From assembly GCA_027493525.1 (NCBI GenBank), contig JAOSKN010000001.1:1240001-1304000 (forward strand): 64,000 nt of DNA. The letters run 5' to 3'. Origin of the DNA: Planctomycetota bacterium (lineage in GTDB: Bacteria; Planctomycetota; SZUA-567; H5-PLA8). The notes under the pieces are model-generated. The model saw only the letters and a program-made list of their open reading frames with translations, had not been told where the DNA came from and made no database searches. The translations under genes and the position numbers were made by a program. This document shows, one piece after another, positions 13,855 through 31,188 of the stretch. Position 1 is the stretch's first letter; the number at the start of each line of letters is the position of its first letter.

Positions 13855-16800
13855 ATGCGCATCGCACGGCTCCTGTTCGCCCTCGCGGTCCTGCTCGGCG
13901 CCCTGGCGCCGCAAGCCGCCCGGGGCTGGGAATCCACGCCCGGCGAGACCGAGGCCTATCACAAGCTCCGCCTGACCGACGAGACCGAGCACACGAAGTG
14001 GGCGCGCCCCTACGCGCCGGGCAAGCCTCGCGTCCTCTTCTTCGTCGACAGCAACGGCGAGGGCATGAACGCGCACGGCCGCGAAGCGCTCGAATTCCTG
14101 CGCCGCTTCGACGCCGAAGTCGAGACGGCCTTCATGATCAACTTCTACGGCAATTACTGGCTGGGCTGCAACGCGGGCATCGAGCGGCTCAACCGGCTGC
14201 TTGAGCGCGACTGGGACGTGCTGGTCTTTCAGGACCTGCCGCCCTCCAAGAAGAGCAAGTACGGGAACGAGGCCTCCGCGCGGCAGCGCATGCTCGAGCT
14301 CGTCGCCAAAGGCGCGGGCGTGGTGCTGCTGGGGACCGACGACGGCGGCTGGTTGCCGGACAAGAAGCCGCTCGCGCAGGGCCCCGAGTTCCTGAAGGAT
14401 CTGGAGGGGGTCTCGTACTTCGAGGCCGGTCCCGCGCGCGTGGTCCAGCACGGCGAGATCCCGTTCATCCCCTGGGGCGTGGGCTGGGAAGCGCGCTACG
14501 ACCGCTGGCAGGAGCGCCTGGGGCGGATGATCCTCTGGGCGGCCAAGCGGGAGCCGGCGCTCCGGATCCAAGTGGCCCCGGCGTCGGCCACGTTCGAGCG
14601 CGCGCAGCTCCCCGCCGATGCCGGCAGCGTGAGCTGGGAAGGGCAGGCCGCCGGGCCGCTGGAGATCGAGGTCCGCCTGCGCCGCGACGACGGGCGCGTG
14701 GAGCCGCTCGCGAAGGCGAGCGCCCAGGCGTCGCCGGGAAAACTGGCGCTCAAGCTGCCGGCGCTGCGCGAAGGCGGTTACGCGATCGAAGCCTTCGCGC
14801 GCGGCGCCAAGGGTATCGAGTCCTGGACGGTCGCCGACATCAAGGTGGCTTCCGCCGACCGCGTGGCCGCCGTCGAGATCGACTCCGGCAAGCGCATGGA
14901 GTTCAAGCAGATCACCAAGGACGCCGCGGCGCAGAAGAAGCGCGACGAGGAACTCGGCGTACTGCTGCCGTACTTCGAGATCGGCGAGACGCTCTCCGGG
15001 CAGGTCGAGCTGACCGGCTCCGGCGCCGGCAAGCGCGTGCGGATCAACCTGCGCGGGCCTGACGAGCGCATCCTGCTGCGGCAGGAGGCCGAGGCGCAGG
15101 CGCGCGCGCCGTTCTCGTTCAAGGTCGAGCCGTGGTGGCCGATGGTCGTGCGGGTCGAGGCGCTGCTGCTGGACGGCGAGGCCGAGGCCAGCGCCGCCTA
15201 CGCCTACGCGCACGTCACTCAGCGCCGCCAGGGCGGCTTCCACTTCGTGCTCTGGGACTTCCCCGTCGAAAGCAGCGTCGCGCCGTACGTCGCCAAGGCG
15301 CTGCGCAAGATGGGGGTCACGGCGATCACGACCTCGCGCGGCGCGCCGCTCTGCGCCGCCGCGCACGGCCTGGCCTGGATCCCCTGGACCGGCGGGAACG
15401 TGACCTCCGGACACCTCGCCGAATGGACCGAGCAGCCGCCCGAAAAGGTCGGCGCGTACATGGTCGGGCACACGACGCGCTCCCGCCCCAGCGGCGTACT
15501 CGCGTATTCGCTCGGCGACGAGGGCAAGACCTCCGGCTACGGAACCGGCCCCGGCGCGGTGAAGCGCTGGCAGGAGTACCTGAAGCAGGCGTATGGCTCG
15601 ATCGAGGCGCTGAACGCGTCGTGGGAGACGCAGCATCCAAACTTCGAGGCCCTCACCCTGGCGCGGCCCAAGCCGATGCCCGAAGCCATGGGCTACGACA
15701 TGGCGATGTTCGGCATCGAAAACTTCGTGGGCTTCGCCAAGGCGCACCGCGAAAATCTGCGCAAGGTCGATCCCGGCGCGGCCATCGGTTTCGAGGGCAG
15801 CGGCGGTTTCGAAGGCGATCCGGAACTGTTCTGCAAGGACCTCGACTTCTGGGCGCCCTACGCCGGAGGCGTCGAGGAGGTCATGCGCAGCTTCGCGCCC
15901 CGCTCGTTCCTGCGCGGAAACTGGATGGGCTACCACGTCACGCCCGAAGGCCATCTGGGCGATTACTGGCGCGGCCTCACGCTGGGGCACAACAGCGTCT
16001 GGTTCTGGATGTGGTCCACGCACGGGGCCTGGAACGGCTGGCAGCACCCCGACCTGAACGGCGTGCCCGACGAGGTCGAGGCGCTGCTCGCGGACACGAC
16101 CTGCGTCCGCGAGGGCCTGGGCGATCTGCTCCAGCAGTACCGGATGCAGGAAGACGGCATCGCGATCCTTTATTCGCGCCCGTCCAACTACGCCATCGAC
16201 CGCCTGTCCAAGGACCAGTACATCCAGAAGGTCGAATGGGCGCACTACGAATGGTGGACCCTCGTGCGCGACCTGGGCTACCAGTTCCGCTACGTCAGCG
16301 ACCGGATGCTGGAGCGCGGCGAGTTCAAGCCCGGCGACGCGAAGATCCTGATCCTGCCCCAGGCGGTGGCGCTCGGCGAAAAGGAAGCCCAGACCGTCCG
16401 CGCGTTCGTCGAGGCCGGCGGGACCGTCATCGCCGATTTCTATCCCGGCCTCTACGATACCCACACCAAGCGCCAGGCTCGAAGCCCGCTCGAGGGACTC
16501 TTCGGCGTCAAGGGCGGGCAGCCCGCGGCGCTCAAGGCCGGCAAACTCCAGATCGAGACGCAATTCAAGGACGCCAAGCTCGCGCTCAAGGATCAGGACG
16601 TCGAAGTGGACACGACCGTGAGCCTCGCCGACGGCCAGGCCTGGGCCAACGTGGAGGGCACGCCGGCCTTCGTCGTCAAGCCGACGGGCAAGGGGCAGGC
16701 GATCCTCTTCAACTTCCCGGTCTGGAAGATCGTCCCCTCGCGCAGCCCCCCGCGAGGCATGGGCGGCGTGGCCGGGCGCGAAACCGTCTCCGAACCCGTG

Positions 16801-17410
16801 GGGCGCTTCTTCGCGGCGCTCTTCGAGGCGCTGGGCCTGAAGCGCCAGATCGTCTGCCAGCCGTACAAGAACAAGAGCGGCATGCCCTACATCCCCAACG
16901 TGGAGGTCGTGCGCTGGCGCGACGGCGAGTACGAACTCTTCTCGGTCTTCCGCAACAACAGCGAACTGGCCGCCAAGACCATGTGCAGCATCGTCACCCC
17001 CGACCGCAAGTGCCACGTCTACGACCTGCGCGAGGGCGTGAGCGCCGGAAACGCGGGGTACTGGTTTCACCGCATCCAGCCCTTCCGCCCCACCTTTTAC
17101 GCGCTGCTCCCGCAACCGCTTGCAGCCGCCGTCGGTCGTGCCGTCCGAGACCGCCCCCGCGCGCGGGACCCCCGTCAAGCTGCGCGTGCACGTCCCGGAC
17201 GCCCGCGGCAAGCACGCCGTGAAACTCCGCGCACGGCTGCCCGGCGGCGCGTACCTGGAGGAGTGGGATCCGGTCGCGATCGTCACCGCGGAACCCCAGG
17301 AACTCGTGCTCCCCATCGCCTTCAACGATCCGCCCGGCGCCTGGATCGTGGAAGCCACCGACGTCTTCGCGCCTCGGACGACCGTGGAGATTCCACTCCA
17401 GGTCAAGTAG
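13855..17410 (+). CDS. Large secreted GH42-like (beta-galactosidase-related) protein, frameshifted near the C-terminus
   Basis: 1184 residues after correction. The ATG at 13855 has CGGAGG six bases upstream, with a signal peptide MRIARLLFALAVLLGALAPQ. The middle is GH42-like: YSLGDEG around residue 560 may carry the acid/base Glu, LNASWETQHPNFEAL is the usual GH42 helix, and AIGFEGSGGFEG may carry the nucleophile. A GATase-like domain follows (ILYSRPSNYAID; ILILPQAVALGEKEAQTVR). At 17119-17122 the sequence reads CTTG; removing one T restores PQPLQPPSVVPSE and a beta-sandwich tail ending VEIPLQVK at 17410. Without correction the frame runs into the next gene as Arg-rich nonsense. Catalytic residue assignments are tentative. 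Confidence 0.75.
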
Positions 17411-21837: not shown

Positions 21838-24800
21838 ATGCCCGCAACGCCCGACGATCTGCACCAGCGCCTGGCGCGCGTGCCGCTCTTCGCCGCGTGG
21901 GCCGAGGACGACCGCCGGCGCCTCGCCGCGCACGCCGCGTTCCTCGACGCCGCGCCCGGCGAGACGATCCTGCGCGAAGGCGAATTCGGTGACCGGATGT
22001 TCCTGATCGAGCGCGGCAGCGTGCAGATTTTCACGCGCGGCTTCGACGGTTCCGATCTGGTGCTCGCGCGGCTGGAGCCCGGCCAGTGGTTCGGGGAGCA
22101 GGCGCTCCTGCCCGGCGGCAGCCCGCGCCGCAACGCGAGCGCCCGCGCGCTCGACGCGTGCCGCCTGGTGACGCTCTCGAGGGGCGACGTCGCCGCGGCC
22201 CTGGGCCGGCATCCGGAACTGCTGCGCCGCTTCCAGGACGCCGGCGCTGCGGAGCGCGCGCTGCGGGAGGCGCGGATCGGCGAGCAGCTCTTCGCGCAGC
22301 TCGGCGTCTCGTCCGGCTCGGCCGCGTACGAGCTCAAGACCTGGCCGGCGGGCGCGGTGATCTTTCGCGAAGGCGATCCGGGCGACCGCGCGTTCCTGGT
22401 GCTGCGCGGCCGGGCCCAGGCCAGCCGGCGCGAGGACGGGCGCGACGAGGTCCTGTCCGAGCTGCTCCCCGGCCAGTTCTTCGGCGAGCGCGCCATCCTG
22501 CAGGACGCCCCCGCGCGGCTTCCGTGCAGGCGCTGGAAGAGACCGAGACCGTCTCGCTCGACGGGACCTGGTTCCGCGAGGCCTGCGAGCAGAGCCCCAG
22601 CCTGCGCGCGCTGATGGATTCGCTCGCCAGCATGTACCTCCTGCCGCGCCGCGGCGTGCTGGCGCTGCAGACGGGCTCCCTGGACGGGCGTCCCAGCATG
22701 ACCGCCGTGCACAGCCTGCCCGACGGGCGGCGCGTCGTGAGCACGCGCCTGGTCGGCGTCGCGGCCTTCACGTCGCGGCGGGTCGGCGGCGGCGACCCGG
22801 ACGAGACGGTGCGCTTCGACGCCGCCGCGCGCGGGCAGTTCCGGGAACTCATGCTCCGCGAACGGCGCCTCGTCGGGCTGCACGCCGAAGGCGAGTGGCC
22901 GCTGCTCGGCGAGGCCCTCGGCTTTCTCCTCGACGACGTGCGGCTCGAGGCCTGGCAGCTCGCGCTCTTCCGGCAGCGCGGCGAGTTCCGCGCCGAGGAT
23001 CCCGAGCCGCTGTACGCCGAGAGCGAAGAACTCTGCGCCTGCACCCACACCACCTGCGGGCAGATCGCCCAGTGCCTGCGCGAAGGCTGCCACTCCGTCG
23101 AAGAGGTCGCCGCGCGCACCCGCGCCACGCTCGTCTGCGGCGGGTGCCTGCCCCTGGTGAAGGAGCTGCTCGGGCAGGCCGACTGGACCCCCGCGCGCGT
23201 CGTCGACTCGATCCCCTGCACGCCCGAAGTCCGCGCCTTCCGGCTGCGGCCGGCGGACGCGGCCTGCCGCGAATTTCGACCGGGCCAGCACCTCGTCCTG
23301 CAGGCGCGGATCGACAACCGCTGGGTCCAGCGCGCCTACACGCTCACCTCGGCCCCCGGCGCGGAGGCCTACGAGATCACCGTCAAGCGCGAGCCGCACG
23401 GCGTCTTCTCGCGCTGGCTTTTCGACCGCCTGGACTCCGATTCGCTGCTGCGCCTCTCCCCGCCCAACGGGGCGTACACGCTGCCGGAGGACCCCGCGCG
23501 CGACGTGGTCTGCCTCGTCGCCGGCATCGGCATGACGCCCGCGCTCGCCTTCGCCCGCTCCCTGGAGCGGTCGCCCCGCGCGGGCCGGCTGCACGTCGAC
23601 TACTCCGTCTCCGACGAAGCCCAGGCGGTGCGCGCCGGGGAACTGGCCCAGCTCCACGCGCGGCACGAGCGCCTCACCTTCAATCTGCGCGTCACGGGGC
23701 GCGTCGGCAGGCTCGGCCGGCGCGAGGTCCACCAGCTCGTCGAGGACTACCCCGAGGCCGACTTCTACCTGTGCGGCGGCGAGGCCTACACCGAGTCCGT
23801 CCGCGAACTGCTGGGGCTCTGCGGCGTGCCGCCCGAACGGATCAAGCTGGAGGTCTTCGTGGACGCGGGCAAACCGGCGCCGGCCGCCGCCGCCCCAGGC
23901 CCCGCCCCGGCCGCCGCCGAAGCGGCCCCGCCGCCCGCCCACCCGCGCGAACAGGCTCGCGAACTGCTCGAGGCCTTCTACACGGAAGCCGGCGCGCGCG
24001 AAGCCTTCGAGGCGCGCTGGCCGCAGGTCAACGGGCTCTTCGAATTCACCGGCACCTATCAGCAGACCGCCGAGGAACTCGCCTATGCCGCACGCATTGC
24101 CTGGCGCAACAGCATCCGCTGCATCGGGCGCATGTACTGGCGGGGCTTGACGGTCCGCGACTTCCGCCACGTGCGCTCCGCCGAGGGCATGTTCGAGGCG
24201 CTGTTCGAACACATCGAGCTGGCCACCAACCGCGGCAACCTCCGCCCCATGATGACCGTCTTCGCGCCGCTCAGCGTCGCCGGGACCGGGCCGCGCGTCT
24301 GGAGCCCGCAGCTTTTCCGCTACGCCGGCTACCGCGAGGCCGATGGGCGCGTCCTCGGCGACCCGGCCAACGTGGAACTCACCGAGGTCGCCCGGGCGCT
24401 GGGCTGGGAGCCGCCCGCGCGGCGCACACCCTTCGATCTGCTGCCGCTGATCGTCCAGGCCGAGAACGACGCGCCCCGCTGGCGCGCGATCCCGCCGGAA
24501 CTCGTCCTCGAGGTCCCCATCGTCCACCCGCAGTTCGCCTGGTTCGAGGACCTGCAGCTCAAGTGGTACGCGCTCCCCGCCGTCTCCTGCATGCGCTTCG
24601 ATGCCGGCGGCGTGACGTACGCGGCGGCGCCCTTCAACGGCTGGTACATGGGCACCGAAATCGGCGCGCGAAATTTCGGGGATGTCGCGCGCTACAACCT
24701 GCTCCCCGTCGTGGCCGCGCGGATGGGGCTGGATACCTCGAACGAACGCACGCTCTGGCGCGACCGCGCGCTCGTCGAACTGAACGCCGCCGTGCTCCAT

Positions 24801-25049
24801 TCCTACGAGAAGGCCGGCGTGACCATGATGGACCATCACGCCGCCAGCCACAGCTTCGACAAGTTCGAGGAACTGGAGCGGCGCGCGGGCCGGCCGGTGA
24901 ACGCAAAATGGAACTGGCTCGTCCCGCCCATCAGCGGCTCGGCGGTGACCGTCTTTCACAAGGAAGGCTGGCCCGAGGTGGAGCGGATTCCCAACTACTT
25001 CTACCAGCCGGATCCATGGAAGACCGGCTCGTCCTGGCGGCGGGAATGA
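21838..25049 (+). CDS. Self-sufficient nitric oxide synthase with tandem cyclic-nucleotide-binding domains and built-in Fe-S/FAD reductase (frameshifted)
   Basis: Reconstructed 1070-residue protein; start with GGAGG eight bases upstream. Domains in order: cNMP-binding 1 (about 10-125; FGEQALL, E87/R97) and cNMP-binding 2 (155-270; FGERAIL, E217/R227), both with the Glu-N9-Arg spacing of CRP-type phosphate cassettes. A linker follows, then a BFD-like [2Fe-2S] motif with C400-x-C402 and C434-x-x-C437. A ferredoxin-reductase module has RAYTLTS (FAD) and GIGMTP plus YLCGG (NAD(P)H). An Ala/Pro linker leads to a NOS oxygenase domain with heme ligand C762 in RNSIRCIGR and the arginine-binding E941 in WYMGTEIG. 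NOS turns L-arginine into citrulline and NO. A reductase placed N-terminal to the oxygenase resembles the Sorangium enzyme. A missing base near 22518 breaks cNMP domain 2 at R227; adding one G restores PARASVQALEETET. Confidence 0.9.
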
Positions 25050-25079: not shown

Positions 25080-26954
25080 CTACCTGCCTTTGCCGCGACC
25101 TGGGCCGCCGGTCTTGGGCCCCCCGCCGCCCTGAGCTGGCGGATTGCCGCCTGCGCCGCCGCCACCGGAACCTCGGCCGACGCCCGAGCCGCTTCCACCT
25201 TCGCCGCCTCCGGATCCGGTGGATGGCTTTCCTCCGCCTTGGCCCGGATTGGAGCCTGAACGGCCGCCCCCGGAACTCGACCCAGGTCCTTTGCCTGCGC
25301 CCGCGCCGCTGCCGTTTCCATTCCCGCTGCCCGCGCCGCTGCCGTTTCCATTGCCATTGCCCGAGCCTGCGGCCGGACCTTTACCGCCTCCGGAGCCGTT
25401 TCCGGTTCCACCCGCGTTTCCGGTTCCGGCGCCGCCGTTGCCGCTCCCACCGGCCGCGCCGGTATGGCCCGCGCGCCTGCCGGCGCCCTCTCCTCCGGCA
25501 CTCGTACCCGTGCCCGTCGATCCGCCGGTAGCTTCGCCGCCGCCGGCGCCTGAGGAGGTCGGCCCGCTCGAGGCTGGATTCGAACTATCCGGCGCCGGAT
25601 CGGCGCCATCGGCCTCGCCATTCCCGGCGCTGGGCGGAGGCTGGGCGCCGTAACCGGTCGCCTTCAAGGTCTGGAAAAGGAAAGGCTCCCCGGGCGTGGA
25701 CTTGAACGGGACGACGCAGCCGTGGTCGGCGACCACCAGGGACTTCGCGCCCAGGCTGGCCAGCTCGAGCCTCCCGGCATCCACGAGCACCACGGTCCGG
25801 CGGTTCGCTTCGTCACGATTCACGCGAGCCTGCGCGCTCTGGGCGAAGATCTCGGGGCCTGCGTCGACCTTCATGGACCAAGGGTTCGCCTGCGCGCGTC
25901 CTTCCGTCTGGAAGGCCATCGAGCCGGCTTCGAGGGTGGGGAGGCATCGGTCGCCCTCAACCGCCAGGCGCAGAATGGAATCGGGATTGAGCCAAATCGT
26001 GCCGCCATCTTCCAGAGCGCATTCCACGCCCTGCTTCCAATCCGTGGGTAACGCGGACTTCTCGAGCGTAGAGGTTCCAACGGCCACACGCTCGCCGGCA
26101 AGGAGCACGCGCCCTTCGCTCAACGTCTCCGCTTGATCCTTCGCAGTCAGTTGGACGGTAACGCCGACGATGCGTTGAATGCGCGCCACGGGTTTTGAAG
26201 CGCTGGCCTGACGCGGCCGGTCCGCATGGACTGCGTTCGGAGCCTCTTCCCGGGACAACGGAGGCGGGGCCGCTTCGGCCAGCGCGGGTTCCGGGGCTTC
26301 CTCCGGCGCGGGCTCCGCGGCTTGGCGTGCCGTCTCCAGTTCCGGATCCAGCTCGGGCCCCGAGGCCTCCGCGTCGAGTTCTTCCGGGGCGTCCGGGACC
26401 TGCGCGATCCGTTCCGGCTGGGGCCGATACGAACGCTTCGCCGGAACCCACGTCTCGTTCTGCGCCTGCACGGGAGCCTGGCGCGGGGCCGGCGCCTCGC
26501 TCAAGAGCACGATCAGCGCCACCAAGGCCGCGGCTCCGGCCACGGGAATCCAAACGGCGCCCGTCTTCGCGGCATCGGCGCGCCTGAGGCGCAAGCTCTT
26601 TCGGCTCCGCTTCGAGGCGCTGCTCCGCTGGGAGACCGAGCGGCGCTGCGAAACGTGGCGCGCCTTGAGCGCCACCACCCTGGCGAACCGTTCGGTATCC
26701 GAGCCGTCCTGTTGAAGCCGGACACCCCGCATCACGGACTCGACGAAGCGCGCTTCGGTGGGACGCGCGGCCAGCAAGCCGGCGATCGCGCGCTCCATGC
26801 GCACCTGCTCCTGGAACCTGCGCGCGTGTTCGGGATGGGCCTCAAGCAACTCCGACAGCGTCCGATCTTCGGATTCGGACAGCACGCCGTCGAAGAAGCG
26901 CGCCATCAGCGTTTCGAATTCGGGAACCTGAAGCGAGGAGGCTTGGGCGATCAT
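25080..26954 (-). CDS. FecR-type anti-sigma/sensor protein with Gly-rich C-terminal tail
   Basis: 624 residues. Its ATG overlaps the sigma-factor stop by four bases (ATGA), suggesting translational coupling. The N-terminal ~90 residues are a helical anti-sigma-like domain (EFETLMARFFDGVLSESED; HPEHARRFQEQVRMERAIAG). One membrane segment (WIPVAGAAALVALIVLLSEA) lies near residue 150. An acidic, Pro-rich stretch leads to a FecR-like beta domain (about 285-440; LSEGRVLLAGERVAVGTSTL, VLVDAGRLELASLG). The last ~190 residues are almost only Gly, Ser, Asn, Ala and Thr with GNGNGSGAG-type repeats, a flexible low-complexity tail beyond the membrane. It probably controls the adjacent ECF sigma factor; the extracellular signal is unknown. 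Confidence 0.7.
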   Translation of the reverse strand: MIAQASSLQVPEFETLMARFFDGVLSESEDRTLSELLEAHPEHARRFQEQVRMERAIAGLLAARPTEARFVESVMRGVRLQQDGSDTERFARVVALKARHVSQRRSVSQRSSASKRSRKSLRLRRADAAKTGAVWIPVAGAAALVALIVLLSEAPAPRQAPVQAQNETWVPAKRSYRPQPERIAQVPDAPEELDAEASGPELDPELETARQAAEPAPEEAPEPALAEAAPPPLSREEAPNAVHADRPRQASASKPVARIQRIVGVTVQLTAKDQAETLSEGRVLLAGERVAVGTSTLEKSALPTDWKQGVECALEDGGTIWLNPDSILRLAVEGDRCLPTLEAGSMAFQTEGRAQANPWSMKVDAGPEIFAQSAQARVNRDEANRRTVVLVDAGRLELASLGAKSLVVADHGCVVPFKSTPGEPFLFQTLKATGYGAQPPPSAGNGEADGADPAPDSSNPASSGPTSSGAGGGEATGGSTGTGTSAGGEGAGRRAGHTGAAGGSGNGGAGTGNAGGTGNGSGGGKGPAAGSGNGNGNGSGAGSGNGNGSGAGAGKGPGSSSGGGRSGSNPGQGGGKPSTGSGGGEGGSGSGVGRGSGGGGAGGNPPAQGGGGPKTGGPGRGKGR

Positions 26955-27526
26955 GAGTAGCGCGCCCCCTGCCGCCGGCGCTCGACGCAATCCCGCAGTT
27001 TGTCGCGGAGCCGCACCAGGGTCTGGCGGATCGAATCGGCCGAACCACCCATCTCTTCGGCAATCCGGTCCGAGGTGGACCCCTCGGCGTAGCGCATGGA
27101 CACGATCTTCCGGAGGTGTTCCGGCAACTGATCCAGGCACATCTTGAGGTGCTGGGTATGGGATGCCAATTCGTCCGGCTCGTCCTGGACGGCCTCTCGA
27201 TCTTGCCGCGCCAGCCAGGCGACCGTATAGCGCTGCTTGAAGCCTCTTTCGCGCTGCACGCGGCGCCATTCGTTGAGCAGGTGATTCCGCGCGATGGCTT
27301 CCAGCCATGCCCAGAAGTTCGACTGGGGGCGAAGTTCGGCCAAGCGCCGCCAGGCCGTCAGGAAAATCTGCTGGCTCAGGTCGTCGGCCCACTCGGGGTC
27401 GGAAGCTCGCATGAGGCACATCGCGCGGACGGCGGGGCTGAAGCGCACGACCAGCTCCTCAAAGGACTTCACGTCGCCTTGGCGCGCGGACTCAACCAGT
27501 TCCGGCAAGTCCACGACCTTTGCCAT
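26951..27526 (-). CDS. ECF-family RNA polymerase sigma factor
   Basis: 191 residues, normal for the ECF class. Region 2 is clear (FEELVVRFSPAVRAMCLMRA; DLSQQIFLTAWRRL; SNFWAWLEAIARNHLLNEWR), as is region 4 (LDQLPEHLRKIVSMRYAEG; TSDRIAEEMGGSADSIRQTL). The WAWLEAIARNHLLNEWR block is typical of the Planctomycetes-enriched ECF groups. An AAGGAA lies a few bases before the ATG. It is first in a two-gene unit with the FecR-type gene and is divergent from a metalloprotease gene. Targets are unknown. Confidence 0.93.
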   Translation of the reverse strand: MAKVVDLPELVESARQGDVKSFEELVVRFSPAVRAMCLMRASDPEWADDLSQQIFLTAWRRLAELRPQSNFWAWLEAIARNHLLNEWRRVQRERGFKQRYTVAWLARQDREAVQDEPDELASHTQHLKMCLDQLPEHLRKIVSMRYAEGSTSDRIAEEMGGSADSIRQTLVRLRDKLRDCVERRRQGARYS

Positions 27527-27728: not shown

Positions 27729-30700
27729 ATGGCCAACATTCCACCCCGAACCCCGAAAGTCCTTATCGTGAAGGAAGATAGGCGAAGGGCGCGCAGCGTC
27801 CTGATGGGCCTGGGCGCACTCTTCTTCTTGCTGGGATTGGGGTTACTCGCCAACGGCTCCCTATGGCCGGCACCTACTGATGAGCAAGTCCAGGTCGAAC
27901 AGGCGCCTATCCCTAATTCTGTCCTAGTGGCGTTTAAGCACGAGGCGCCCCTCGCCGACAAAGCGCCCCAAGGCGAGCAGCCGAGCGACGAGGTCATCCT
28001 GGTTCAATTCGAAGGTTGGGTTGAAAAGTACCTGGAAGCCGACGACGAATCGCGCCCCGAGCTGGCTCGCGAAGGGCTCGAGCTGGCGCCTCGCCGGCGT
28101 GAAATCATGTCCCGCCTGATCGAAGCAGCCCCGCGGCGGGCCCTGGAGCACGCCATTCCGGCTTACAAGGCCAAGCGCCTGCCCGAAGCCGTCCGCAAGC
28201 ACCTGGAACAGCAGGTCGATGCCCACGGCGACTTCCAGGTGGCGGGAGTGCTCGCGGAACCCGGGAGCGGCGAACCGCCCATTAAGCGCTGGGTCGAGCT
28301 GGACGGCGAGCGTTACCGGGCGCACGTGTACGGCCGCCGCCTGACCCAGAGCACCAAGCAAAACATTCCCCTGCACGGCATCGTGCTGGACCAGGAACTC
28401 GCGTTGAGCGAGAGCCCGCTGCGCGTCCTGGCCAAGGGGGAACTGCCCGACCCGAATCTCCCTGTGGCCAACGAAGACCTGCGCTGCCCGATCTCTCAGA
28501 TCGCCTCGCGCGAGGTCGTCGTCGATGCGGGCGGCGTCCTCTACTACCTGTGCAGCGGCGGGCACATCCTGGCCCTGGAGCAGGACCTGATCGCCCAGGA
28601 AGGCGGGACGAGCGGGGGCGGCGGGACCGTGGCGCAGTCCGCGTGGACCACGGGCAACAAGACGGTGCTGATCATCAACATCAAGTTCTCGGACACGACC
28701 ACGAACTACCACAGCGACACCACGCTGCTGAACATGATGAACGGCTGCAACACGTTCATGCAGGCGACGTCTTATGGCGCGACCTCCATGACGTCCACCT
28801 TCACGCCGCTGCTGACGCTGCCGAATCCCGAGTCGTACTACGTCACCAACGGCGACTACGTGCTGTACAGCCACGCCCGTTCGGCGGCTTCGAGCGCCGG
28901 ATACGTCTACACCGATTTCAACCTGGACGCCGTCTGCTGGAAGGGCGGTCCGGGCAGTTACGGCGGGCAGGCGTACGTCGGTTCGCGCGGCTGCTGGCTC
29001 AAGAGCGCCACCGCGGGCGTCGCGGCCCACGAGTTCGGCCACAACTTCCGGGCTCTGGCACGCCAACTACTGGACCGCCACGGGCGACAGCATCATCGGC
29101 GCGGGCAGCAACAACGAATACGGCGATGTCTTCGACAACATGGGTTCGGCCAGCACGGGCAATCAGTACAACGCCTACGAACGCAACCGGCTGGACTGGC
29201 TGCCCAGTTCCTATGTCCAGACCGCCGCGTCCAGCGGCACCTACCGCATCCATGCCTTCGACAAGGGCAGCCTCGCCAGCGGGAACGTCTACGCGCTGAA
29301 GGTGCTCAAGGACGCCGACCGGGATTACTGGCTCGACTTCCGCCAGAACCATACCGGCAACAAGTGGCTGATGAGCGGCGTGGACCTGCACTGGGATCCC
29401 TGGGCGCAGAGCAACGGCGGCAGCCAGTTGCTCGATACCACGCCCGGAACCTCCAACGGCAAGAACGACTCCGCCATCGTCATCGGCCGGACCTTCTCCG
29501 ATGCCGGCGCCGGCATCCACCTCACGCCCATCCGCAAGGGCGGCACGACGCCCGAATCCATCGACGTGGTCGTGAACCTGGGGACCTTCTCCGGGAACTC
29601 GGCGCCCACGCTCAATCTCTCCGCCAGCGCCACCGCGGTGGGCACGGGCATTACCGTCAACTTCACCTCCGGCGCGTCCGATCCCAACGGCGACACGCTG
29701 GCCTACTTCTGGGACTTCGGCGACAACACCTTCGGCGCCAACGCCGCGACGGCCAGCAAGAGCTGGAGCGCCGCGAAGGAGTACGTGGTCCGCTGCGTGG
29801 TCAGCGACATGAGGGGCGGCGAGACCAGCGACTACGTGGTCGTGACCGTGGGCGCCCCCGCCAACTTCCGGATCGCCGGCCGCGTCACCAACGGCGGCGC
29901 CGGCCTCCAGGGCGCGCGGGTGCATAACGGCCTGCCCACCAACGACACGAATTACCGCACCGCCTGGACCGATAAGGACGGCTATTACGAGATGGTCGAT
30001 CTCCCGGCCGGCTCGTATACCGTCGGCGCGGTCAAATACGGCTACGCGCTCTCCGCGGCCTTCGCCAATCCCGTGGTCGTGGGGCCCAACGCCGGCGGAA
30101 TCGACTTCACCGCGTCGATGCCAACCTACGCGATCGGCGGCACGGTCACCTCGGCCGGCGCGGCCGTGTCGGGCGTCACCGTCAGCGACGGTTTCCGCTC
30201 CGTACTGACCGCCTCCAACGGGTCCTTTACCATCTCCGGTGTGCCTGCCGGATCGTACACGCTCACGGCGGTCAAGTCGGGCCTCAGCTACAATCCCAAC
30301 GGCTGGAGCAACCCGGTCGTGGTGGACGGCGCCAACGTCACCGGCCGCAATTTCGTCGCGCCGCTGTACAGCATCTCCGGCGAGATTTCGGGCGTTACGT
30401 CTTCGGTGACGGTCAGCGACGGCACGCGCAGCACGACCTCGTATCAGACCGGCGGCGGCAAGAACAAGCGCTGGGTCTACACCCTCTCCGGCGTCCCGCA
30501 GGGCACCTATACCCTCACCGCCACGCTGACCGGCTACACGCTGGTCCCCAGCGGCTGGACCAATCCGGTCAGCGTGACGAGCAACCGGACCGGCATGAAC
30601 TTCGCCGCGGGTGGAGGTTCCACGGCCTACACCGTATCGGGCGAGATTCTGGGCGTCGCGCAGGCCGTCACCGTCAGCGACGGCACGCGCTCCACCACCA

Positions 30701-31188
30701 GCAAGCTCACCGGGAAGGGCAAGAACGCCAAATGGACGTATTCGCTGACCGGCGTGCCCGCCGGCACCTATACGCTCACGGCCAGCCTCGCGGGCTACGT
30801 CTTCACGCCCGCCAACTTCACGAATCCCGTAACCGTCAGCGCAAACCTGACGTCGAGGAATTTCCAGGGCGTCGCCGCCGGGCAATTCGCCAACGAGCCT
30901 CCGGTCATCATGAGCAGCCCCTGGGCTTCCCCTGCCCGGATTCGCGTGGCCAACGCCACGAAGCTGGGCGTGGTCGCGTACGATCCGGACGAAGGCCCCG
31001 ACGACCTGATCTACATCTGGACGAAGGTAAGCGGTCCCGGACAGGTCTACTACTCGGACAACTGCACGGTCGATGCGGACCAGGTTGAAGCGCGCTTCAG
31101 CAAGCCGGGAACCTATGTGCTCCGCGTCACGGTTCACGACGGCGACGACGCGGACACGGATACGGTGAAGGTGGTGGTGGTGCGTTAG
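27729..31188 (+). CDS. Metzincin metalloprotease with PKD and carboxypeptidase-regulatory-like repeats, frameshifted in the zinc motif
   Basis: 1152 residues after correction; ATG with AGGAG eight bases upstream. An N-terminal membrane/signal segment (MGLGALFFLLGLGLLANG) and pro-region precede the protease. The zinc site reads HEFGHNF in one frame and continues GLWH in the next: dropping one C at 29048-29049 gives HEFGHNFGLWH, the metzincin HExxHxxGxxH (H434, E435, H438, H444). NEYGDVFDNMGS supplies the Met-turn and resembles gametolysin (M11)-type enzymes. Downstream are a PKD domain (about 620-708), four beta-sandwich CarboxypepD-reg-like repeats (about 710-1047, the last two nearly duplicate) and a final PKD-like domain. 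It should be secreted or surface-anchored. If the frameshift is real, the gene is dead. Confidence 0.82.

Follow-up and report, generated by a model that had tools for sequence, protein, structure and literature searches.

A candidate cyclic-nucleotide-gated nitric oxide synthase: two cNMP-binding domains ahead of a reductase-first enzyme in a Planctomycetota genome and its relatives

Can a bacterium control nitric oxide (NO) production directly by a cyclic nucleotide, with sensor, reductase and synthase in one polypeptide? This question is raised by a gene at positions 21838 to 25049 of a 64,000-nucleotide stretch of a Planctomycetota genome (assembly GCA_027493525.1, contig JAOSKN010000001.1), hereafter called the window. 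A sequence-only reading had proposed that it encodes a nitric oxide synthase (NOS) fused to its own reductase and to two cyclic-nucleotide (cNMP)-binding domains. With a probability of roughly 60% we favour the reading that the product is likely a self-sufficient, reductase-first NOS whose two PKA-like cNMP domains likely bind cAMP and would gate the electron flow to the heme. The domain order, the intact redox and NOS residues, the conserved phosphate-binding cassettes and the same single-protein design in other bacteria are seen in the profile matches and alignments described below; from these we infer the gating of NO production by a cyclic nucleotide.

The protein is encoded by two overlapping open reading frames (ORFs) on the + strand that lie in different frames. 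The first ORF (21838-22614, 258 amino acids (aa)), with a Shine-Dalgarno-like ggagg recognised by eye upstream of its ATG, contains both cNMP-binding domains as two PF00027 stretches (128.6 bits, E 8.7e-38); its last ~34 codons are an out-of-frame tail beyond a frame break. The second ORF (22086-25049, 987 aa) is genuinely coding from about 22515 according to the ORF list, Pfam and the codon-usage model, and provides the rest of the second cNMP domain, a linker domain, a BFD-like [2Fe-2S] domain, the reductase and the NOS oxygenase. These two pieces were analysed separately and never joined. Across them Pfam recovered the full set of the original proposal, i.e. tandem cNMP, BFD, ferredoxin-reductase and NOS oxygenase domains. 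The BFD and the FAD/NAD reductase both stand N-terminal to the oxygenase within the second ORF, which is the order of the Sorangium cellulosum enzyme (scNOS).

The oxygenase domain (23949..25022, + strand) is complete. The NO_synthase profile (PF02898) is matched over positions 7-362 of 362 with 499.8 bits and E 5.1e-150, a second profile score being 503.3 bits, and among solved structures the domain matches NOS 2flq (E 1.3e-118) and the Bacillus subtilis NOS 2an2 (E 1.9e-111). The heme Cys (codon 24120-24122) and the Arg-binding Glu (codon 24657-24659) lie where they had first been placed. Both columns are invariant (84/84 relatives for the Cys, 82/82 with a letter there for the Glu). A Pro/Ala-rich linker (23862..23948, + strand, read from the sequence) joins the oxygenase to the FAD/NAD(P)H ferredoxin-reductase module (23178..23861, + strand; PF00970 FAD_binding_6, 35.7 bits). 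The equivalent of this linker in the homologue P0002 (residues 675-702) was modelled with a predicted local distance difference test score (pLDDT) under 50. The module carries the motifs RAYT (23331), GIGMTP (23523) and CGG (23772), and the checked Cys, FAD and NAD residues are invariant in 84/84 relatives. In NCBIfam it comes nearest to the flavohemoprotein Hmp, with 114.8 bits over the module, below the whole-protein cut-off of 432.

Upstream of the reductase lies the BFD-like [2Fe-2S] domain (23034..23174, + strand; Fer2_BFD, 33.9 bits). Its four Cys codons at 23034, 23040, 23136 and 23145 are invariant in 84/84 relatives. The matches to Fer2_BFD, FAD_binding_6 and NO_synthase are all above the curated cut-offs. 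The nearest NCBIfam model of the BFD part is the nitrite reductase NirB (45.6 bits, below cut-off), and in the homologue P0070 a NirB match (TIGR02374) covers the BFD together with the preceding linker domain. Models of relatives place this linker domain, which is beta-rich and then forms two helices, at about 22647..23030 (+ strand); the linker of the window alone matched no Pfam family. Behind the cNMP domains come this NirB-like linker and the BFD. No helix-turn-helix family, as would mark a CRP/FNR regulator, and no flavodoxin family was found in either window piece (Pfam, E 0.001).

The first cNMP-binding domain (CNB1, 21952..22209, + strand) carries the phosphate-binding cassette FGEQALLPGGSPRRNAS at 22090..22140, as defined by the alignment of relatives. 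Its pocket pair is complete in the window and consists of Glu87 (22096-22098) and Arg98 (22129-22131). The part of the second domain (CNB2) before the break spans 22336..22515 (+ strand; 57.5 bits, profile positions 2-62 of 89), and the other frame carries on to about 22590. Glu217 of site 2 is present at 22486-22488, while the frame break hits the position of the Arg. The pockets had previously been read as E87/R97 and E217/R227, i.e. with E-N9-R spacing at both sites, and this had to be given up: the alignment gives E-N10-R for site 1 and, in the relatives, E-N8-R for site 2, the latter being the spacing of PKA. At site 1 the aligned column of R98 is Arg in 78/83 relatives, while that of R97 is Arg in 59 and otherwise His, Lys, Gln or others. 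The N9 spacing at site 2 arose because the sequence was read past the frame break. Neither error removes a pocket.

Conservation of the pocket residues was evaluated over 84 aligned fusion proteins. At site 1 the Glu is kept in 82/83 and the Arg in 78/83 rows with a letter there; at site 2 the numbers are 79/84 and 74/84. A full Glu/Arg pair is found at site 1 in 77/84, at site 2 in 70/84, at both in 65/84 and at one or more in 82/84 proteins, leaving P0022 and P0060 with neither. By conservation the pocket residues rank 3rd and 10th of 89 positions in CNB1 and 9th and 12th of 85 in CNB2, with top-residue frequencies of 0.88-0.99 compared to domain medians of 0.59 (CNB1) and 0.54 (CNB2). The residue following the site 2 Arg is mixed (A, S, T, N and others) and does not point to a ligand.

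The search of sequence databases for this domain order, which the sequence-only reading had called for, found the fusion elsewhere. It gave 334 homologues from 7992 scored candidates, and the best 120 were listed. Excluding P0001, the predicted protein of the source genome itself, 84 of the 119 listed homologues carry cNMP, BFD and NOS models as single proteins of 933-1183 aa with identities of up to 64%. Another 33, from Sorangium and cyanobacteria, carry EF-hand models instead of cNMP, and two (P0114 and P0119) have neither. P0119 (1175 aa) shows FAD, weak BFD and NOS matches but Pfam detects no sensor domain in it at E 0.001; it may carry another type of sensor. A genome search yielded at least 577 confirmed relatives; 80 loci were kept, eight of which have FNR and NOS in one ORF. 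Seven of these were run through Pfam; the eighth, L008, starts at a contig end. In 7/7 one ORF contained two cNMP stretches, BFD, FAD_binding_6 and NO_synthase. They come from several phyla: Sericytochromatia (L002), Reyranella (L003), Pseudomonadales (L004), Gammaproteobacteria (L005), Rokubacteria (L006), Rhodospirillales (L007) and Polyangium (L009). A chance joining of adjacent genes by an assembly fault is ruled out by the 84 listed single-chain homologues and the seven named genomes. Judged by these domain matches, the cNMP-NOS is a real and widespread family that is not peculiar to the window.

The relation between the two sensor types was examined with an oxygenase tree of 80 rows and a reductase tree of 57 rows, reduced from sets of 198 and 125 sequences to which the window was added; both were midpoint-rooted only. 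The reductase set lacks L007, L008 and L098, whose best alignments were not long enough. In the reductase tree a single change suffices for the 41 cNMP rows, and likewise for the 14 EF-hand rows (support 99). In the oxygenase tree the 14 EF-hand rows form one clade together with the ungrouped P0114 and P0119 (support 99), and 40 of the 42 cNMP rows lie in one clade (support 96) that also contains the ungrouped L008; the cNMP rows P0089 and P0091 lie outside. Such a topology fits a single sensor exchange, or one joining event per sensor, on a shared chassis. The EF-hands in the N-terminal slot of the sister enzymes are what one would expect if the regulatory input were exchangeable and the catalytic chassis shared.

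By rpoB, the best named match of the host is a Planctomycetes bacterium with 88% identity. The distribution of NOS around the host is sparse. NOS was found in one of the seven genomes of the host family, its own, and in 3/392 genomes of the phylum sample including it, and the nearest named row to the window oxygenase in the tree is from Rokubacteria. Horizontal gain of the gene by the host is likely. L098, from another genome of the same phylum, is the only other near-complete NOS domain of the phylum sample; it lies in a 589-aa frame and forms a long branch of its own in the oxygenase tree.

How could the cNMP domains act on the enzyme? Electrons would pass from NAD(P)H via FAD and the [2Fe-2S] cluster to the NOS heme. 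The cNMP pair, separated by one linker domain from the [2Fe-2S] domain that comes after it, would hold or free the latter. Ligand binding would shift the cNMP helices such that the [2Fe-2S] domain is released to dock on the oxygenase. In animal NOS calmodulin gates the FMN domain, and the cNMP pair would take over the corresponding role. For the more far-reaching statement, that the enzyme is directly switched by cAMP and that its N-terminal slot is filled by either a PKA-like cNMP pair or Ca2+-binding EF-hands, giving two second-messenger-gated families without calmodulin on the same chassis, we regard the odds as even.

As the ligand, cAMP is likely and cGMP less likely, judging from the cyclases. 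The own genome gave eight class III cyclase matches, and such cyclases occur in 7/7 genomes of the named loci (15 in L002, 21 in L003, one in L004, one in L005, 23 in L006, one in L007 and 17 in L009). Of the eight own cyclases, four (L083-L086) could be read for the purine-selecting residues, and each of them pairs Lys with Thr or Asp. In the genomes of L004, L005 and L007, the one cyclase present pairs Lys with Thr or Ser. According to the rule for purine-selecting residues such pairs are adenylate-type. Since the readable cyclases carry adenylate-type residues, cAMP appears the likelier signal from these partial data. H-NOX (PF07700) had no match in the own genome, which is 88% complete, giving no support for a cGMP loop through H-NOX. 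The L004, L005 and L007 genomes are small (2.4-2.8 Mb), each with exactly one class III cyclase match plus the cNMP-NOS.

Several observations weigh against this reading, and some limit the models used. The full-length model of the homologue P0002 reached a predicted template modelling score (pTM) of only 0.58, which leaves the domain packing and the gating geometry unproven. In the same model the loop with the second [2Fe-2S] Cys pair (432-435) has a pLDDT under 50. A second model, of a Rokubacteria fragment, has a pLDDT of 78.9 and rests on a shallow alignment of this fragment and eight other rows, two of which are the separate window pieces. Foldseek matches to the PKA regulatory subunit over both CNBs have root-mean-square deviations (rmsd) of 11-19 Å, such that the relative placement of CNB1 and CNB2 is either unlike PKA or unsettled by the model; the lists of solved-structure matches are filled by NOS or CNB1 and barely cover the linker and CNB2. 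At site 2 the Arg is replaced by His in 8/84 rows, and P0120, L004 and L005 have Ala for both residues. This degeneration means that at most one site may work in some members. Class III cyclases are also found in 5/14 control genomes, which were not a matched set; being that common, their presence alongside the cNMP-NOS says little. No cyclase was seen among the neighbours scanned with Pfam, which were a part of all neighbours (three flanking ORFs and, in a further scan, ten ORFs of the window; eight proteins at L002, L004, L006 and L009). Finally, the gene is split in the source genome and may be a true pseudogene there.

Of the competing explanations, the one that survives best is that the cNMP-fold domains recognise a different ligand, for instance c-di-GMP or a metabolite, or only dimerise or dock, with the NOS being constitutive or otherwise regulated. 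Among CRP-fold proteins there are some with other ligands or with none at all, and family 2B encapsulins carry a cNMP-fold domain outside transcription factors; this encapsulin family is also among the NCBIfam matches here, below cut-off. The loss of the site 2 pair in 14/84 rows and of the site 1 pair in 7/84, one of them a gap in a short protein, points the same way. Against it stand the complete Glu/Arg pair at one site or more in nearly all members, the elevated conservation of the pocket residues over their domain medians, and the nearest solved folds of CNB1, which include many cNMP-bound kinase and channel domains. We consider this explanation possible, though clearly less probable than cNMP binding with gating.

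Less probable still, and in our view unlikely, is that the gene of the source genome is a pseudogene or encodes two proteins, a free cNMP pair and an internally started reductase-NOS, so that nothing would be fused here. It draws on the frame break itself, which coincides with a run of five C at 22508..22512 (+ strand) within phosphate-binding cassette 2, the coding signal of the codon-usage model switching frame at 22513/22524. The predicted P0001 of the source genome starts just past the break, and the rarity of NOS in the family and phylum is as for a recent gain. The homologues are, in contrast, continuous at this position. P0002 spans it, with the first window piece aligning to residues 13-224 and the second to residues 227-1071. 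The restoration of one base in the sequence-only reading was thus right in kind: relatives read through the break as single proteins. Beyond the break 844 codons are open, and the four [2Fe-2S] Cys, the FAD/NAD motifs, the heme Cys and the Arg-binding Glu are intact. Within the same 64 kb two other same-strand coding switches with less than 10 nucleotides (nt) between the frames occur near 17107 and 29046, and elsewhere in the genome a class III cyclase domain (G000:C2:1051285-1051801) is matched as two adjacent pieces in different frames, i.e. as another split gene. The assembly comprises 7.46 Mb in six contigs at 88% completeness; few contigs combined with this completeness fit uncorrected long reads with indel errors. 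From the open codons, the intact residues, the neighbouring switches, the split cyclase and the assembly statistics the break is probably not biological, and most likely represents an assembly error or a very recent event.

That the gene is an ordinary Sorangium-type EF-hand NOS is very improbable: it shares the BFD-FAD-NAD-NOS order and, with named Sorangium proteins, 43-45% identity over 86-95% of the query piece, but neither window piece has an EF-hand family in Pfam (the same library finds EF-hand_7 in Sorangium P0101), the one Sorangium protein scanned has no cNMP family, and the two forms lie on separate branches in both trees.

In the window the NOS gene comes after a gene of the same strand for a PD40-repeat protein, and it is convergent with a pair consisting of an extracytoplasmic function (ECF) sigma factor and a secreted protein; on the - strand at 25080-27526, adjoining the NOS gene, the sigma factor stands beside a long Gly/Ser-rich protein. 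No clear NO partner was seen among these window neighbours. A promoter and terminator scan gave no promoter-like and three terminator-like hits, compared to a shuffle mean of 1.4. At L004 the NOS gene is succeeded, 34 nt further on, by the gene of a class III alcohol dehydrogenase (TIGR02818, 639 bits, above cut-off) and then by an S-formylglutathione hydrolase gene (both at L004:10546-12503). The same dehydrogenase is found at L005:10551-11404 with 486 bits, under the cut-off because the contig end cuts the gene. This dehydrogenase family is also called S-nitrosoglutathione (GSNO) reductase. Its presence here may point to the clearance of NO adducts, or to no more than the detoxification of formaldehyde. 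Upstream of the cNMP-NOS at L004 lie TauD-family, nitroreductase-family and GDPD-family proteins.

The two other frame switches of the window were inspected as well. The one near 29046 lies inside a metzincin-like HEFGHNF/GLWH motif (HExxHxxGxxH, by eye; 29040-29070), within a frame-broken gene for a PKD/CarboxypepD_reg protein at about 27729-31185, a second sign of assembly indel errors. The switch at about 17107-17111 lies towards the end of the gene for a GH42-like beta-galactosidase, which begins at 13855, and was seen by the coding signal alone.

If cAMP gating holds, NO would be an output of bacterial cAMP signalling, the opposite of the animal pathway, which runs from NO to cGMP. The enzyme would then provide a one-protein system for reductase-domain gating without calmodulin, and a genetically encoded source of NO that a small molecule switches. 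Thanks to the EF-hand sister branch, two different candidate second messengers can be compared directly on the same chassis.

In the PMC literature, searched by titles and abstract starts with preprints outside its scope, no description of a NOS with cNMP-binding domains was found among the papers listed. The term "cyclic nucleotide" is absent from the main text of PMC3701330, PMC6104048, PMC9500659, PMC7400543 and PMC12922734. The UniRef name of one Polyangium spumosum protein begins "Cyclic nucleotide-binding domain-c"; some members are therefore annotated, and the architecture is visible in databases, though we found no description of it. The cNMP-domain NOS is apparently an undescribed form of reductase-first NOS.

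How does this form compare with known systems? Bacillus-type NOS shares the oxygenase domain (2an2) but consists of the oxygenase only, without reductase or sensor. The NOS of Synechococcus PCC 7335 and animal NOS resemble the window protein in having an oxygenase with a covalent reductase and a built-in control. Their reductase is a diflavin reductase, which follows the oxygenase domain, and instead of cNMP domains they have a globin and a C2 domain (Synechococcus) or a calmodulin site (animal). With PKA regulatory subunits and PKG the window protein shares the tandem CNBs, the phosphate-binding cassettes, the fold and, in its relatives, the E-N8-R spacing of site 2. It differs in its output, which is a NOS and not a kinase, in the longer site 1 loop and in the unmatched CNB packing.

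Bacterial NOS is described as being for the most part an oxygenase domain with borrowed electrons, and in the papers covered here the Synechococcus enzyme is the regulated multidomain exception. For this enzyme control by a C2 domain (PMC12922734), the presence of a globin domain (PMC6104048) and a high Ca2+ requirement (PMC9500659) are reported. For Sorangium NOS, EF-hands and a BFD domain (PMC7400543) as well as the reductase-first order (PMC3701330) are published.

Closest to the window protein is scNOS, with the [2Fe-2S], FAD and NAD reductase ahead of the oxygenase in one chain. Named Sorangium proteins are 43-45% identical to the window piece used as query, along 95% of its length. The study of scNOS is reportedly that of Agapie et al. 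from 2009. The Sorangium and cyanobacterial forms carry EF-hands in the N-terminal slot, whereas the window protein carries two cNMP domains there.

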